Shown: piece after piece, positions 16,637 through 47,605 of the stretch | How positions within the stretch are numbered: position 1 is the stretch's first letter | Layout of the letters: each line of letters starts with the position of its first letter | Assembly: GCF_008630935.1 (NCBI RefSeq) | Contig: NZ_CP043908.1 | Location: forward strand, 930,001 to 994,000 | Length of the DNA: 64,000 bases | Direction of reading: 5' to 3' | Source: Thermodesulfobacterium sp. TA1 | GTDB lineage: Bacteria > Desulfobacterota > Thermodesulfobacteria > Thermodesulfobacteriales > Thermodesulfobacteriaceae | The notes under the pieces: generated by a model | Seen by the model: the letters and a program-made list of their open reading frames with translations, nothing else | Databases searched by the model: none | What the model was told of the DNA's origin: nothing | Made by a program: the position numbers and the translations under genes

Positions 16637-17149
16637 TTATTTGTCTCTATACCAGTATACTCTTACTAATTTATCTCCTTTAGACCATCTAAACTCTAAA
16701 TCTCCTTTATAAGCTCTATATAAAGCCCTTCCCAATCTTTGGGCTAAATGGTCGGTAGTAGTTTCAATAACGGTTTTACCGTCTTCTTCGTTGATGGTTA
16801 TGATTTGATGTAACGGATTAATGTTACGTGCCCTTTCATATTCGTTGTTTAGAAGCTTCATGATGTCCCCTTTATGAGTTTCCCAAAAGTTTCCTGAAAT
16901 ATAAAGATAACCCATTGCATATTGGTCCATAGCTTTCCTACAACCAGGACAGATAATTTGAGGAACACTATCGCTTTCTTTCAACTCTTCGTACAACTCT
17001 TCGTCTATAACCCAACGTTTATCTTTAAACACAGCCTTACATCTTGGACAAATAGCCTCTCCAGAAGGAGCCTCTTTCATTGCATAGGGATCTTCGTTGG
17101 TTTCAAACACATACCTATGTTTAATCCATTTATCTCCTTTTTTACTCAT
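16637..17149 (-). CDS. Zinc-ribbon protein resembling the BCAM0308/NMD3-like family
   Basis: 170-residue protein with two CXXC pairs, ICPRCKA (about 34-37) and ICPGCRKAM (about 67-70), predicted to hold zinc. The C-terminal half has alternating strands (HQIITINEEDGKTVIETTTDHLAQRLGRAL) like small RNA-binding domains. The best family recall is BCAM0308-type proteins of unknown function; I am only moderately sure. A strong AAAGGAGG site and a good promoter upstream (17193-17221) support expression and this start. Confidence 0.55.
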   Translation of the reverse strand: MSKKGDKWIKHRYVFETNEDPYAMKEAPSGEAICPRCKAVFKDKRWVIDEELYEELKESDSVPQIICPGCRKAMDQYAMGYLYISGNFWETHKGDIMKLLNNEYERARNINPLHQIITINEEDGKTVIETTTDHLAQRLGRALYRAYKGDLEFRWSKGDKLVRVYWYRDK

Positions 17150-17192
17150 AAATCCTCCTTTTGAAATCTTTTAATTTTTACTTCTTTTTAAA

Positions 17193-17221
17193 AATATAAT
17201 TACTTATCTGCTTGTTGTCAA
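17193..17221 (-). promoter_or_regulatory. Sigma-70-type promoter for the 17149 gene
   Basis: On the minus strand TTGACA (top 17216-17221) and TATATT (top 17193-17198) are 17 nt apart. This is close to consensus and about 45 nt upstream of the start codon. It likely drives the zinc-ribbon, Usp and exchanger genes. Confidence 0.75.
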
Positions 17222-17355
17222 TGAAACCAACGATTGGTTATAAATTTTCTGTTGGATGATAATTAGACAATCCCTTTTATAAGATGCTTTTTTAGTTCTT
17301 TATTCTCTAATTATGTGGATAGTTTAGATTACCTCCAAGGCTACACTATTATAGG

Positions 17356-17383
17356 TTGACTTTTAGGGTTTCTCTATTAAATT
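17356..17383 (+). promoter_or_regulatory. Promoter for the 17448 gene
   Basis: TTGACT (17356-17361) and TAAATT (17378-17383) have a 16-nt spacer. The predicted transcript starts near 17390. The leader contains a 6-bp hairpin (17401-17416, GATGGT/ACCATC). This placement argues that translation begins at 17448 rather than at an upstream ATG at 17391. Confidence 0.55.
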
Positions 17384-17447
17384 TACTTTTATGGCTTACA
17401 GATGGTTACCACCATCTAAACATCATATACCACTTTGGGAGGGAAAA

Positions 17448-17879
17448 ATGGTTGATAAGATACAACTTGAAAATGGATTAACGTTAGAAATATGGGATTA
17501 CTCCAGAAGACTTGCTGGAGACAGGTGGTTGGTAGGGCTTTTAATCCAGGTCGGGGTTGAACCTGAAAAAAAAGACTTTGCTAATGACACTTATTATAAT
17601 CTTTTTCTGGAAAAAACCGACGGAAAGGTTTACTACCGTTATAGGAAAGAAAGAAATTTTGTGCCTGAAGACCAGATAAATCAGCTATTTTCTACCATGA
17701 AAGAAGGTTTCCTCAACGTAGCCCTTCCTTATCTTTCTCATCCAGAGTTTAAAGAAAAGCTGATTAAACATGAGGTAGAACTGTTTCAGAAAAAAATAGA
17801 TTGGGAAAAGTCTATCCAAGAAAAAGATGCAGAAACAGAACGCTTAGAAGAAATTTGGAAGGATAAATCTATATACTAA
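17448..17879 (+). CDS. Conserved-looking protein of unknown function (143 aa)
   Basis: No family is recognised. The protein is soluble and rich in charged and aromatic residues. It has a beta-rich first half (KIQLENGLTLEIWDYSRRLAGDRWLVGLLIQV) and a helical, acidic C-terminal tail (EKDAETERLEEIWKDKSIY). The reading frame is open from 17391, but GGGAGGG at 17438-17443 lies 5 nt before the ATG at 17448, and the promoter places the transcript start near 17390, so the shorter form is chosen. It converges on mtgA with a 6-nt gap. Confidence 0.7.
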   Translation: MVDKIQLENGLTLEIWDYSRRLAGDRWLVGLLIQVGVEPEKKDFANDTYYNLFLEKTDGKVYYRYRKERNFVPEDQINQLFSTMKEGFLNVALPYLSHPEFKEKLIKHEVELFQKKIDWEKSIQEKDAETERLEEIWKDKSIY

Positions 17880-17885
17880 AACTCT

Positions 17886-18755
17886 TTATTCTGTTTTTTC
17901 TTGGTTTTTATCTTCTCCTAATGGGGGTTCTTTAGTAGGCTCTAAAACCGGTGTTTGTTCTGATACAGGCTGGGTAGGTTTTTCTTCAGGTGTTTCAGAC
18001 TGTAGAGAGTCAAGAGCAGGTTCGGTTATGTCTTCAGTTTCATTTTCTATATTTTTATATTCTTCTTTTATGATACCTCTTTTTTTCATGATAAAGTAGA
18101 TTAATCGACTTCTTTTTTCTACATAAGGTTGATTTCCTAAAGGATTATATTTTAAAGGATTAGGAAGTACTGCTACCAATCTTGCCGCTTCCCAAGGGGT
18201 AAGGTTTTTAGCACTTTTTCCGTAATAATGTTTAGCCGCTGCTTCAGCCCCAAAAATACCTTCTCCCCATTCTGCAACATTAAGATATATCTCTAAAATA
18301 CGTTTTTTTGATAAAGTTTTTTCAAGTCTTAGGGTAATGATAGCCTCTTGGATTTTTCTTATAGGGTTTTTAGACGGGCTCAAATAAAGATTTTTAGCAA
18401 GCTGTTGTGAAATAGTGCTTCCTCCATATTTAAGTTTTCCTTCTTTCAAATTTTTTTCTAAGGCTTTTTTGATACCTTCAAAGTCAAACCCTTCGTGCCT
18501 ATAAAATTTGTCGTCCTCTCCTATTAATACCGCTTTGATTAGATAAGGAGAGATACTACTTAAGGGAACCCAGATTTGTCTTATTTGGACCTTTTTCCCT
18601 TCTTTCTCCCACTGTTTCATCCTATATTTCATCATAGCCGTAAGCTTTGGATTTTGAGTTTTTAAAGAAGATACATCAACTAACAGTGGATAACCGACCA
18701 AATAACCCAAAAAACCAATTCCTAACGACAAAAAAAGTAGTTTTAAAGTTTTCAT
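17886..18755 (-). CDS. mtgA: Monofunctional peptidoglycan glycosyltransferase
   Basis: Membrane-anchored GT51 enzyme polymerising lipid II glycan strands. The N-terminal segment LLFLSLGIGFLGYLVGYPLL is the anchor. The catalytic blocks are present: LIGEDDKFYRHEGFDFEGI (catalytic Glu in EDDKFYRH), KYGGSTISQQLAKNLYL, RKIQEAI and KKRILEIYLNVAEWGEGIFGAEAAAKHYYGKSA. There is no transpeptidase domain. An unusual tail of about 60 residues (from about 230) is rich in E, P, T and Q and looks disordered; the typical MtgA ends earlier. The gene is divergent from apgM. Confidence 0.93.
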   Translation of the reverse strand: MKTLKLLFLSLGIGFLGYLVGYPLLVDVSSLKTQNPKLTAMMKYRMKQWEKEGKKVQIRQIWVPLSSISPYLIKAVLIGEDDKFYRHEGFDFEGIKKALEKNLKEGKLKYGGSTISQQLAKNLYLSPSKNPIRKIQEAIITLRLEKTLSKKRILEIYLNVAEWGEGIFGAEAAAKHYYGKSAKNLTPWEAARLVAVLPNPLKYNPLGNQPYVEKRSRLIYFIMKKRGIIKEEYKNIENETEDITEPALDSLQSETPEEKPTQPVSEQTPVLEPTKEPPLGEDKNQEKTE

Positions 18756-18806
18756 GGTTTTATAATTATATGATAAAATAGAGAAAAAACAAAAGGGAGG
18801 AAAACG

Positions 18807-20030
18807 ATGGGGCTTGTTGAAGGTCTTATCAAAAAAGGAGAGGGGAAAATTGTCAAAGTAGTCCTTGACGGAATAGGGGACCTACCTGTAAAAGAAGGAA
18901 AAACTCCCTTAGAGTTAGCTTATACCCCGAACCTCGATCGATTGGCCAAAAAATCAGCTACAGGACTTCATATTCCTGTAGACTATGGCATAACCCCAGG
19001 CAGCGGTCCAGGACATCTTGGTATCTTTGGATATGACCCTTCTCAAATTACCATAGGGCGTGGAGTATTAGAGGCCTTAGGGGTAGGGATAGAATTGAGA
19101 GACACAGACGTTGCAGTAAGAGGAAATTTTGCTACCGTAGAATACCATCAACAAACCCCCATCGTGATAGATAGAAGGGCAGGAAGAATACCAACCGAAG
19201 AAAACCAAAGATTGATCGCTAAACTTTCTGAAAAGATAAAAAACATAGAGGATGTTGAGATTATTTTAAAACCTGGGATGGAACATCGTTTTGTGGTGGT
19301 TTTCAGGTTTCCAGAAAAGGTACCTGAAGCCGTAAACCTAATAAACGATACAGACCCTCAAGTCTTAGGAAAAGCACCCTTACCGCTTTCCTCTCCCACA
19401 CCTGAAGTGAAAAAGATAATAGGGGTTGTCTCTAAGTTTATTACTCAAGCTTCAGAAATTTTAAAAGATGAACCTAAAGCTAACTTTGTGCTGCTTAGAG
19501 GTTTTTCTGTAAAACCTAATCTTCCTACTTTACAAGAAAGGTTCGGACTAAACCCATGTTGTATAGCTACCTATCCGATGTATAAAGGATTGGCAAGCCT
19601 GGTAGGGATGAAAATACTTTCTTTTAAAGGCATGGATATAAAAGATGAAATACAAACTTTAAAGGAAGTTTGGGAAGACTACGATTACTTTTTTATACAT
19701 ATAAAAAAAACCGATTCTTACGGAGAAGACGGAAACGCCGAGGGGAAGGTAAAAATAATAGAAACTTTTGATCAGAGCCTTCCTGAAATTTTAAATTTAA
19801 ACCCTACAGTCCTTTGTATCACCGGAGACCATTCTACCCCATGTATTATGAAGGGGCATTCTTGGCATCCTGTGCCTACCCTTATTTTTTCTCCTTATGT
19901 TTTAGGTAATACCTCTGAAAGATTTACTGAAAGAGAATGTCTAAAAGGTGAGTTAGGGATGTTTTATGCCTATAAACTTATGCCCCTTCTCTTAGCCCAT
20001 GCAGGAAGACTTAAAAAATTCGGGGCTTAA
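18807..20030 (+). CDS. apgM: 2,3-bisphosphoglycerate-independent phosphoglycerate mutase, archaeal type
   Basis: Interconverts 3- and 2-phosphoglycerate in glycolysis and gluconeogenesis. The 407 residues belong to the alkaline-phosphatase-superfamily ApgM type. The opening VVLDGIGDLPVKEGKTPLELAYTPNLDRLAKKS is diagnostic. The nucleophile region is TPGSGPGHLGIFGYDP. The metal-binding ends are FFIHIKKTDSYGEDGNAEGK and LCITGDHSTPC. It is shorter than the 510-residue GpmI. A strong GGGAGG site precedes the ATG. ApgM is common in archaea and in deep-branching thermophiles. Confidence 0.93.
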   Translation: MGLVEGLIKKGEGKIVKVVLDGIGDLPVKEGKTPLELAYTPNLDRLAKKSATGLHIPVDYGITPGSGPGHLGIFGYDPSQITIGRGVLEALGVGIELRDTDVAVRGNFATVEYHQQTPIVIDRRAGRIPTEENQRLIAKLSEKIKNIEDVEIILKPGMEHRFVVVFRFPEKVPEAVNLINDTDPQVLGKAPLPLSSPTPEVKKIIGVVSKFITQASEILKDEPKANFVLLRGFSVKPNLPTLQERFGLNPCCIATYPMYKGLASLVGMKILSFKGMDIKDEIQTLKEVWEDYDYFFIHIKKTDSYGEDGNAEGKVKIIETFDQSLPEILNLNPTVLCITGDHSTPCIMKGHSWHPVPTLIFSPYVLGNTSERFTERECLKGELGMFYAYKLMPLLLAHAGRLKKFGA

Positions 20031-44425: not shown

Positions 44426-44456
44426 TAACGTTTTAGAAGTTATAACTAAGAATTGA
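44426..44456 (+). repeat. 31-bp direct repeat, copy 1 (possible att site)
   Basis: Exactly identical to 47456-47486. It begins TAACGTTTTAGAAG and ends CTAAGAATTGA, around the 8-bp palindrome GTTATAAC (44439-44446). With copy 2 it brackets all phage-like sequence. Bases differ immediately outside both copies. Confidence 0.9.
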
Positions 44457-44470
44457 TGTAATTTTTCAGG

Positions 44471-44650
44471 AAAACCGAACGGGTGTCAAGGGTTGTGAGA
44501 CTATCCGGGACTAAGTGGGACTATCTGGGACAGCTTGATTTGTAAGGGATTGGTCAAAGAAAGTTTTTTGCAAGTTTGCAGTTGTTCGGTTTTTGATACA
44601 AATTTGTTCGGTTTTTTTTGATACAAATTGAATTATAGTCGTTCGGTTTT
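44471..44650. repeat. GTTCGGTTTT boxes in the tape-measure 3' region
   Basis: GTTCGGTTTT occurs at 44584, 44606 and 44641, two of them followed by TTGATACAAATT-like sequence after a T-run. The reverse complement AAAACCGAAC lies at 44471-44480. The stretch holds no convincing gene. The boxes could be protein-binding sites or could pair to form long stems in the transcript. Confidence 0.7.
44497..44536 (+). repeat. Four imperfect 10-bp tandem repeats (iteron-like)
   Basis: Units GAGACTATCC, GGGACTAAGT, GGGACTATCT and GGGACAGCTT follow each other without gaps. The 10-bp period matches one DNA turn, as in iterons or clustered protein sites. It lies 40 bp inside direct-repeat copy 1. Confidence 0.7.
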
Positions 44651-47076
44651 TAGTAACGACGCCTTTCTCTTTCATAATTGATACGCTGTAAGGTTCTTTC
44701 AATGATGTTTCGAAGGTCTGTAGCTATAGTTTCTTTTTCTTTTTCGGTGATCGTTCCATGTATTACAAATTGAATAGACCCGATATGAATTGTAGGACCA
44801 GTAAAGGTTGCTCCAGCAGGCTTTACAGGTTCAAGGACTTGTTTCATTGCAATAAGTAGAGGGGATGGTTTGATTGCTTCTGCAATAGTTTCAATAAACT
44901 TAATGCGATGAAGATCGCTTAGTGGACCTTCTTTTGCTGGACTTGAAGGGAGAAGATTTCTAATTTTTTGGACGATGTTTTTAACTTCTTCTATTGGCTT
45001 AGTAGCAACGGTTTTTATACCTTCCCAAAGGCTTTCTATAATTTTTTTCCCTGCTACAAAAAGGTCAATACCCATCACATACTGGACAAGCTTTCTAAGA
45101 GCCATAATAGGGGCTGTAATGGGATTAACATATAAAAAAACTTCTAAGACTTTTTTCCAATTTGCTTTTAACCAGTTCCACACTCCAGATAAAGCTTTGC
45201 TTATTTTATCCCAGTGTTTATAGACGAGATATCCTGCAGTAATGAGTGCTACTATACCTGTTATAATGAGAAAAATTGGATTTGTAATTAAAGCCAAACT
45301 AAAAGCTCTTACTGCAACTACTGCAGAACGAAAACCAGAAATTAATGCCCTTAAACCAGATAAAAAAGAAGCCCATACATAGCGTGCCATAACACCCATA
45401 AAGTGTAGTAAAGCTGTAGTTTTAGCTTTAAGAGCAGAAACTGCTTGTAAAATTGAAAATTTTACTTTTAAAAGCCAAAAATCAAAGGTTTTAAGCCATG
45501 TTATTCCTGCTTGTCCTGTTATTATCCATTTAAGGAAAGCTATTGAATTTTGTAGTAAAGCTCCTGTTAAATTTTTTACTAAATTTATTCTCATCAACCA
45601 CAAAGCTGAAGTAAAAGCAAGACTTAGAAGTTTTAATGCTGTTCCCAAAACAAGAGAGAAGGTCCCAACAACTGCAAGAAGACTTACAAATCCACCTATA
45701 GTGTAAGCAAAAACTGCTGAGAGGGTTTTATGTTCGTTTATAAAATCTGCCACTTTCCCAAGCACATTATTGAGAAAATTAAATATTTTAATCAAACCAG
45801 GAGCTACGAGAGAACCAAAAATAGCTGCAACTTGAGTTAACGTCCCCTGCAGAGACTCCCACACATTGGCAAATGTTTGTAAAGTTACGTTAATTCTTTG
45901 TTGTAAAGATGCTTGTTCTTCCATTTTTTTTGCCATTTCTTCAAGTCCAGAAAATCCCCCTTCTTTTATTTGTTCTCGTAAGGCTGTATATTCCTCTGGC
46001 TTTAAAGTATTTTTAATAGTTTCTAAATAAGCAAGGGCTTCTTCTTTGGATTTCACGAGAAGTGGAACTATAGCACGCATGCCTTCAGCATCAAATAAAG
46101 TAGTCAAGATTTTCATTCGTAAGAGAGGGTCTTGTATAGCGGAGAGTCTTTCTCGAATAGTAATTAAAAATTTTTCTAATTGAAATGCTCCCCTTTCGTC
46201 AAAAAAATCTTTGACAGAAATTTGAAGATCTATACCTTCTTTCTTTTGTAATTTGCTAAGATTTTCTTCAAGTTTTGATATGTTTTGTAAAACAGAACGT
46301 ATCGATGTACCTGCTGTTTCACCTTTGATACCAAATTGTTTAAGCGTACCAATCCAAGCAAACATTATTTTAGATGCATTTAAACCTGTTACTCCGAGTT
46401 GATTAAGCTCAGAAGAAAAATATTTAGTTGAATAAGCAATTTCTGAAAGTTCTAATCCAGAGGCAAATTTGAGCCTTTGTAGTTGATCTACAAAGGCGGA
46501 AAAACCTTCTGCAGGTATTTTGAACGCATTAGCAAATTGTTGCATATATTCTGCTACTTGTTCTGGAGAGGCTTCTCTTTTAAATAATACCCAAGCATAG
46601 CTTGCTGCTTTTAGTCCACCACCTACTATTTTTTCAATGTCCATCCCAGCAGATTTTAAGGCTGTAGCTACACGATAAAAATCCGTTGCACTACCAGGAA
46701 GTCTTACTCCAAGCTCTTCAATTTGCTTGTTTAGTTCTTCAATTTGTTTAGGTAGCCCTTCTTTTGTCATGAAGGCAACTTCCATTTCCACTCTTGCTTG
46801 TTCCATTTCTGAAAAGCTATGTATTGCTTTAGTAAAACCAGCAAGTGGAAGAGCGGTTGCTTGAGCCATCTTTGCAGTAAAATCTTCAAACCTTTCTGAA
46901 AATTCCCAGAGAGCTTTCGGGTCAAAAGCTTTACGAAGTGTTTCTTGGAAAGATTTTAACTTGTTTTGTGTTTGTTGAAGTTCGTGATTAAACCTTGAGA
47001 CGTTCTCTTTTAATTCAAAAAGCTGACGAGAAAAGTTATCAATAAGTTGTAAAGCTATGGCAATTTTAAAATCCAT
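44650..47076 (-). CDS. Phage tail tape measure protein (TP901 family)
   Basis: 808-residue tail-length ruler of long-tailed phages. The N-terminal 60 residues are coiled-coil (LFELKENVSRFNHELQQTQNKL). The TP901 core (about 110-270) has ELGVRLPGSATDFYRVATALKSAGMDIEKI and ASKIMFAWIGTLKQFGIKGETAGTSIRSVLQNI. Hydrophobic stretches at about 470-500 and 600-630 are usual in this family. The frame is intact from ATG to TAA with an AAGGAT site upstream. No capsid, sheath, tube, baseplate, terminase or integrase gene accompanies it. It is bracketed by 31-bp direct repeats beside a tRNA. It is either a prophage remnant or part of a small mobile unit. Confidence 0.92.
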   Translation of the reverse strand: MDFKIAIALQLIDNFSRQLFELKENVSRFNHELQQTQNKLKSFQETLRKAFDPKALWEFSERFEDFTAKMAQATALPLAGFTKAIHSFSEMEQARVEMEVAFMTKEGLPKQIEELNKQIEELGVRLPGSATDFYRVATALKSAGMDIEKIVGGGLKAASYAWVLFKREASPEQVAEYMQQFANAFKIPAEGFSAFVDQLQRLKFASGLELSEIAYSTKYFSSELNQLGVTGLNASKIMFAWIGTLKQFGIKGETAGTSIRSVLQNISKLEENLSKLQKKEGIDLQISVKDFFDERGAFQLEKFLITIRERLSAIQDPLLRMKILTTLFDAEGMRAIVPLLVKSKEEALAYLETIKNTLKPEEYTALREQIKEGGFSGLEEMAKKMEEQASLQQRINVTLQTFANVWESLQGTLTQVAAIFGSLVAPGLIKIFNFLNNVLGKVADFINEHKTLSAVFAYTIGGFVSLLAVVGTFSLVLGTALKLLSLAFTSALWLMRINLVKNLTGALLQNSIAFLKWIITGQAGITWLKTFDFWLLKVKFSILQAVSALKAKTTALLHFMGVMARYVWASFLSGLRALISGFRSAVVAVRAFSLALITNPIFLIITGIVALITAGYLVYKHWDKISKALSGVWNWLKANWKKVLEVFLYVNPITAPIMALRKLVQYVMGIDLFVAGKKIIESLWEGIKTVATKPIEEVKNIVQKIRNLLPSSPAKEGPLSDLHRIKFIETIAEAIKPSPLLIAMKQVLEPVKPAGATFTGPTIHIGSIQFVIHGTITEKEKETIATDLRNIIERTLQRINYERERRRY

Positions 47077-47090
47077 AGTATAATATCCTT

Positions 47091-47306
47091 ATGCCTTTCG
47101 TTTTTTTACTTGGATTATACGTCCTGGTAGGATACATTTTAGGTGGGCTCGTTATTTTCCTCATACCGCTTGCTTTTATAGCAATTATCTTTTGGCTTAT
47201 AGGAAAACATTTTTTAACTCCCGGTCTTAGAGTATATTTTACTCGTAGAAAGGAGCGTAAAAAGCTCAAAAAAATTTTGGAAGAAAGGCTTAAATATCTT
47301 CCGTAA
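47091..47306 (+). CDS. Small membrane protein candidate inside the phage-like segment
   Basis: 71 codons divergent from the tape-measure gene. The first 45 residues are hydrophobic (two possible helices, FLLGLYVLVGYILGG and IPLAFIAIIFWLIG). A basic amphipathic tail RRKERKKLKKILEERLKYLP follows. This composition looks like a real anchored peptide or holin-like protein. There is no Shine-Dalgarno site, and a TATAAT at 47079-47084 would give an almost leaderless message. An opposite-strand frame here (47066-47341) has poor composition. Coding status is uncertain. Confidence 0.4.
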   Translation: MPFVFLLGLYVLVGYILGGLVIFLIPLAFIAIIFWLIGKHFLTPGLRVYFTRRKERKKLKKILEERLKYLP

Positions 47307-47454
47307 GGTTTTTGTAAAATTCTGTAAGTTTGAAAAGCCAAAATTTAAGCTCTTGATAAGACATCTCTGCAAGGTCCTTATATGAAAACCCATGTTTTAT
47401 CATTGAGAGGATTGTTTCGGCGTTAATAAAGGGTTGTAAATCTCGGTAAAATCT
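47290..47454 (-). pseudogene. 5'-truncated phage tail-gene fragment (tail chaperone-like)
   Basis: An open frame of 54 codons plus stop reads RFYRDLQPFINAETILSM, then IKHGFSYKDLAEMSYQELKF, then WLFKLTEFYKNLTEDI. The pattern of 'S..DL..M...EL.FWL..L.EFY' resembles small proteins encoded just before tape-measure genes (gpE/tail assembly chaperone type). Upstream the frame runs into a stop within direct-repeat copy 2. The only Met is internal (47403), with no ribosome site. So the gene's front appears to have been cut off at the repeat. Confidence 0.55.
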
Positions 47455-47455
47455 C

Positions 47456-47486
47456 TAACGTTTTAGAAGTTATAACTAAGAATTGA
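47456..47486 (+). repeat. 31-bp direct repeat, copy 2 (possible att site)
   Basis: Exact copy of 44426-44456, offset by 3,030 bp in the same orientation, with GTTATAAC at 47469-47476. It lies 28 bp from the 3' end of tRNA-Ser(GGA). The phage-like fragment 47290-47454 stops at its edge. Confidence 0.9.
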
Positions 47487-47514
47487 AAAGAAGAAAAAAT
47501 AAGAAAAGAAATGG

Positions 47515-47605
47515 CGGAGGGGGCGGGATTCGAACCCGCGGTACGGGTTTTAGCCCGTACATGCGATTTCCAGTCGCACCCCTTCGTCCACTCGGGCACC
47601 CCTCC
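47515..47605 (-). tRNA. tRNA-Ser(GGA)
   Basis: 91 nt on the minus strand. The acceptor stem GGAGGGG/CCCCTCC has discriminator G. The anticodon loop CTGGAAA has GGA (top 47569-47571). A long variable arm, GTACGGGCTAAAACCCGTAC, marks it as class II (Ser), and the T arm is GCGGG-TTCGAAT-CCCGC. CCA is not encoded. It reads UCC/UCU serine codons. Its 3' side faces the phage-like segment. Confidence 0.97.

Follow-up and report, generated by a model that had tools for sequence, protein, structure and literature searches.

The repeats are exact and confined to the locus

How does an intact phage tape-measure protein (TMP) gene come to lie between two direct repeats beside a tRNA gene? This arrangement occurs in a 64,000-nt stretch of the chromosome of Thermodesulfobacterium sp. 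TA1, which we analyzed at its full length (the window; features in Table 1). The 31-bp sequence TAACGTTTTAGAAGTTATAACTAAGAATTGA noted in a preliminary description is indeed present as two exact copies, 3,030 bp apart and enclosing 2,999 bp. A 22-nt part of it did not occur in any of 100 dinucleotide shuffles of the window when up to three mismatches were allowed. Throughout the complete 1.83-Mb genome, the 27-nt core of the repeat is found in the two flanking copies and nowhere else, even at three mismatches. The core is also absent from 29 related genomes of the family at three mismatches, and it has no exact match in the viral and genome collections searched. The segment and the window are indistinguishable in G+C content (35.2 and 35.5%, respectively). 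The far repeat ends 25 bp from the tRNA-Ser gene, rather than 28 bp as first reported.

Table 1. Features of the repeat-flanked segment, its chromosomal neighbor and the related element in genome G029. Positions are those of the window except in the last line.
Feature	Position	Strand	Remark
Left copy of 31-bp direct repeat	44426..44456	.	
Right (late-gene) end, apparently a Mu-like phage terminus	44457..44651 (end approximate)	+	5'-TGTAATTTTTCAGGAAAACCGAACGG, then GGGAC repeats
Intact tape-measure protein gene, 808 aa	44650..47076	-	stop codon overlaps innermost terminal site
Promoter-like site for membrane ORF, ATGGCA-16-TATAAT	47057..47084	+	consensus match only
71-aa hydrophobic protein with basic C-terminus, proposed moron	47091..47306	+	antisense to tail genes
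3' part of frameshift tail-chaperone frame (E')	47294..47455 (start approximate)	-	cut exactly at right repeat
Right copy of 31-bp direct repeat	47456..47486	.	read as uninterrupted ancestral target
tRNA-Ser(GGA)	47512..47605	-	chromosomal neighbor
Element in G029, 3.1 kb	L057 (G029:C66) 16834-19963		beside tRNA-Ser(CGA)

The ends of the 31-mer (GTTTTA...GAATTGA) match the host's own 30-nt CRISPR repeat, GTTTTAAGCCTACCTATGAGGAATTGAAAT, as they would if the 31-mer had arisen as a repeat of the CRISPR type, with the 3-kb segment as an oversized spacer integrated in the wrong place. We rejected this reading and regard its probability as negligible. The boundaries of the duplication differ from those of the CRISPR repeat, the middle differs as well, there is no array, and the left edge is explained by a Mu-like terminus (see below). 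Moreover, none of the 161 spacers extracted from two arrays of this genome (L096 207-7572 and L006 10618-15943, with 112 and 52 repeats) matches the insert convincingly. One spacer matches the MuB gene of a prophage in the related genome G009 over 20 of 21 bp, so an earlier encounter of the host lineage with Mu-like relatives is possible.

One edge looks like a phage terminus and the other cuts a tail gene

Directly inside the left repeat, at 44457, the sequence opens with 5'-TG (TGTAAT) and appears to be a Mu-like phage terminus. Three direct GTTCGGTTTTT sites lie within it, at 44580, 44602 and 44637, while AAAACCGAACG, near the edge at 44471, is inverted relative to them. A 5'-TG terminus combined with multiple putative transposase-type sites is what a Mu-like phage would present, and this combination occurs at the left edge only. 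In the related genome G029, a decayed phage element has an inverted terminus that agrees with the left-edge sequence at 25 of 26 bp. Within its own genome the terminus has a single genuine occurrence; a second match sits inside a pstC-like gene and was discarded as chance. Similar architecture is seen in G004, where GGGA repeats and then TTTGTAAAGGAT follow the last gene of a tail-gene remnant, and the right end of the G009 prophage, read inward as TGTTCATTCCAGGAAAAAAG, resembles the left edge by eye. Our searches revealed no intact phage that ends in exactly this way (with TGTAATTTTTCAGG at its end).

The right edge is of a different kind. A minus-strand frame running from the right repeat, RFYRDLQPFINAETILSMIKHGFSYKDLAEMSYQELKFWLFKLTEFYKNLTEDI, matches the E' frame of the G009 tail chaperone with 65% identity over 29 residues. 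The match of the same frame to G023 (38%) begins at residue 2 of what remains, and a stop codon lies directly outside the frame, at the repeat edge. Because homology extends up to residue 2 and is followed by a stop at the edge, the right repeat cuts the chaperone gene (E/E'). Mid-chaperone sequence therefore takes the place that a second Mu-like terminus ending in CA would occupy. Both inner edges adjoin the 31-bp repeat without a gap.

These edges bear on two other accounts of the repeats. Exact repeats adjoining a tRNA gene could be the attachment sites, attL and attR, of an element that a tyrosine integrase had placed at tRNA-Ser and that has since collapsed internally to the TMP gene, and the decayed G029 element, also beside a tRNA-Ser gene, contains sequence that reads by eye like the N-terminus of a tyrosine recombinase. 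We nevertheless consider att sites improbable. Instead of falling inside the 3' end of the tRNA gene, the repeat stops 25 bp short of that gene; there is no integrase ORF between the repeats; and G029 has its copies of the related terminus in inverted rather than direct orientation. Since one repeat adjoins a transposase-type terminus and the other a mid-gene cut, the two are unlike att sites and are not expected to have recombined with each other. Exact direct repeats beside a tRNA gene thus need not be att sites.

The main rival to our preferred reading is that repair of a staggered chromosomal break took up a linear piece of phage DNA, which would have generated the 31-bp duplication directly without a full prophage ever having been inserted here. 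Fill-in duplication predicts gapless inner edges such as those observed, but it would make an edge lying exactly at a transposase-type 5'-TG terminus a coincidence, and we judge this account unlikely, though less so than that of att sites.

The tape-measure gene is intact but not alone

The full-length, 808-codon TMP gene of the preliminary description was borne out by matches of its ORF to PF10145 (2.5e-26) and PHROG 28 (5.8e-71). Its supposed isolation was not, as the segment also holds the truncated chaperone frame, a conserved 71-aa membrane ORF and the Mu-like terminus. The closest TMP relatives belong to the same bacterial family (51% identity in G004, about 35% in G009). Among named phages the best match is Pseudomonas phage Bise; a viral contig collection yielded two relatives, both weak, and a search of a genome contig collection yielded none. 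The TMP stop codon falls inside the innermost terminal site (44637-44652).

A captured TMP gene with a host or satellite role had also been suggested, for which we obtained no positive evidence. We found no second TMP gene, no sheath gene elsewhere, no tail-bearing partner and no MuA relative in this genome (the last searched with the Mu-transpos_C family and with the MuA of G009, the latter query without a positive control). As these searches of the genome found no sheath gene, second TMP or MuA relative, nothing suggests that the TMP serves another tail. As a late gene it probably goes unexpressed, and it would have survived because the rest of the prophage was lost recently.

Related genomes provide empty sites and a complete relative

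Three related genomes (G009, G021 and G012) carry the fliL and tRNA-Ser flanks at 77-83% identity without the insert, and these are the empty sites that the preliminary description had proposed to look for. Conserved anchors are 95-99 bp apart in the empty sites, as compared to 88 bp here if one 31-bp copy is counted and 57 bp if none is. This spacing fits one copy, which is probably ancestral on the basis of length only: the 31-mer aligns to the empty sites no better than shuffled versions of it do, so that its ancestry is not demonstrable by sequence.

A whole Mu-like relative is present in G009. Delimited against the empty site in G021, this prophage is 35,678 bp long with a 5-bp duplication; its ends can be read as 5'-TG...CA with TAGAG as the duplication, and it encodes MuA (PHROG 310), MuB (PHROG 296), Gam and Mu F. 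The genes between TMP and terminus are a tail protein, a fibre and SSB in G009, and U-, X-, D-, V- and SSB-type genes in G004 (all names except SSB were assigned by eye from translations). The G009 prophage also contains the same 401-aa transposase gene twice (L037 7708-8913 and L084 7958-9163), one copy lying between tail chaperone and TMP, where other members have the membrane ORF. Matches to Mu-transpos_C in G015 and G018 do not represent this phage; they belong to a transposon-type set of transposase, AAA ATPase and a third ORF, and by eye look like Tn7/Tn5053-type elements.

The G029 element has two inverted copies of the terminus (27 bp, 89% complementary) 3.1 kb apart, enclosing decayed E, E', membrane-ORF and TMP-start sequence. 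Several small secreted-type ORFs are also present in it. Two termini around the same region, again beside tRNA-Ser, would suit a non-autonomous mobile unit or satellite, composed of TMP and membrane protein and moved by a phage transposase in trans, for which 3.1 kb would be the size of a recurring mini-element. Movement in trans had been among the initial proposals, but we consider it very improbable: only one terminus lies in the window and it is single in the genome, the MuA search described above found no relative, and the G029 copy is decayed and has unrelated genes inside.

A probable Mu-like prophage remnant with a 31-bp scar

The segment is probably a remnant of a Mu-like prophage, its 31-bp duplication having been left by an illegitimate event of the template-switch or one-ended type. 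A Mu-like phage of this bacterial family would have entered the interval from fliL to tRNA-Ser, its right end, on the late-gene side, being attached behind ATTGA, and these last 5 bp of the left 31-mer would be the phage target duplication. We infer the subsequent deletions, in their order and mechanism, as follows. Most of the prophage would have been lost, one deletion joining the end of the TMP gene to the right terminus and taking out the genes that relatives carry in between; a separate deletion is required here because the relatives have several genes at this position. A second event would have removed the sequence from inside the chaperone gene through the left terminus. The broken end would have been attached to a target copy that held no insert, at a position 31 bp upstream of where the phage had inserted, thereby generating the exact 31-bp duplication in one step, either by a double template switch during replication or by a one-ended join or a join to a prophage-free sister chromosome. 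The right 31-mer would then be the ancestral, uninterrupted copy of the target, and the remaining segment would be unable to move by itself.

The reconstruction has its difficulties. As the second terminus is absent and the duplication is 31 bp instead of 5 bp, an extra event must be assumed. The end of the TMP gene coincides exactly with the start of the terminal sites, a junction unusually neat to have come from a random deletion, and the position of two remnants, here and in G029, beside tRNA-Ser genes is left to chance by the model. The recurrence of tRNA-Ser as a neighbor of such phage remnants may reflect a preferred target.

Since the segment has neither a second terminus nor a 5-bp duplication such as that of the G009 relative, and the genome yielded no MuA-like match, we file the segment as a phage-derived remnant and not as a working phage. 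The collapsed prophage of the preliminary description stands in kind, as a deletion remnant with empty sites in relatives, although the collapse did not proceed by recombination between the repeats. What had been a puzzling lone tape measure becomes a readable prophage wreck, ordinary in kind, with an unusual 31-bp scar.

A small membrane protein as a candidate exclusion factor

The membrane ORF separates the chaperone from the TMP gene, is read from the opposite strand and encodes about 40 mostly hydrophobic residues followed by a basic tail ending KKLKKILEERLKYLP. It is preceded by a sigma-70-like site, in a region that holds 15 such matches versus 8.6 expected, and the predicted transcript would be nearly leaderless. 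A search with a three-member profile located homologues at six further loci in other genomes, and at three of these (G001, G021 and G012) a CRISPR array is close by. The ORF is intact next to decayed TMP sequence in G029 and G002, adjoins chaperone and TMP-start traces in G001, and adjoins an ORF of the WWWHLDKI type in G001, G006, G021 and G012. It is not always kept, as the G012 copy has an altered C-terminus and weaker matches in G010 and G017 contain stops. The ORF matched no PADLOC family, and its Pfam matches were all below the curated cut-offs.

The WWWHLDKI-type ORFs form a family ending in WWWHLDKI...YPxELLPEHLR (L084 19350-19700, L099 10305-10667, L100 9538-10261, L101 8812-9501). 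The G009 member directly follows the Mu F gene, whereas elsewhere they lie beside the membrane ORF; phage remnants retain them, in some cases next to a CRISPR array. No match was found in Pfam (four ORFs), PHROG (one ORF) or PADLOC (two ORFs). At a guess, Mu F could have a toxin domain at its C-terminus against which these proteins give immunity.

If any part of the segment is retained for function, the membrane ORF is a better candidate than the TMP gene, and selection may be keeping this putative moron rather than the TMP. With its own promoter-like site, it may act as an exclusion protein expressed from the prophage. We tentatively propose, as a possibility that we rate well below even odds, that the 71-aa protein represents a new family of TMP-directed superinfection exclusion, a moron of Mu-like phages that outlives its prophages because it protects the host; it does persist in small remnants from several genera and, in three genomes, close to a CRISPR array. 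Recurring as it does in the debris of phages and near CRISPR loci, this family of small membrane proteins is in any case a concrete candidate for phage exclusion.

Comparison with known systems

Like Mu-like phages, of which the closest whole relative is the 35.7-kb G009 prophage, the segment has a 5'-TG terminus with repeated transposase-type sites, a frameshift chaperone preceding the TMP gene, and late genes that read toward the terminus. In contrast to these phages, it has only one terminus, the TMP gene, the membrane ORF and part of the chaperone left, it is without MuA, and it is flanked by a repeat of 31 bp, not 5 bp. The G029 element, which belongs to no family described so far, shares with it the terminus, the E/E'/membrane-ORF/TMP-start region and the tRNA-Ser neighbor, but retains both termini, has its TMP gene cut down to the start, and contains extra, unrelated ORFs. 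For the membrane ORF, the comparison is with HK97 gp15, a superinfection-exclusion moron that the account in PMC10883804 places between the frameshift tail chaperone and the TMP. The two are alike in being small, membrane-type proteins encoded at this same position; they differ in that the membrane ORF lies on the opposite strand and shows no sequence similarity to gp15 (hhalign probability 0.9%).
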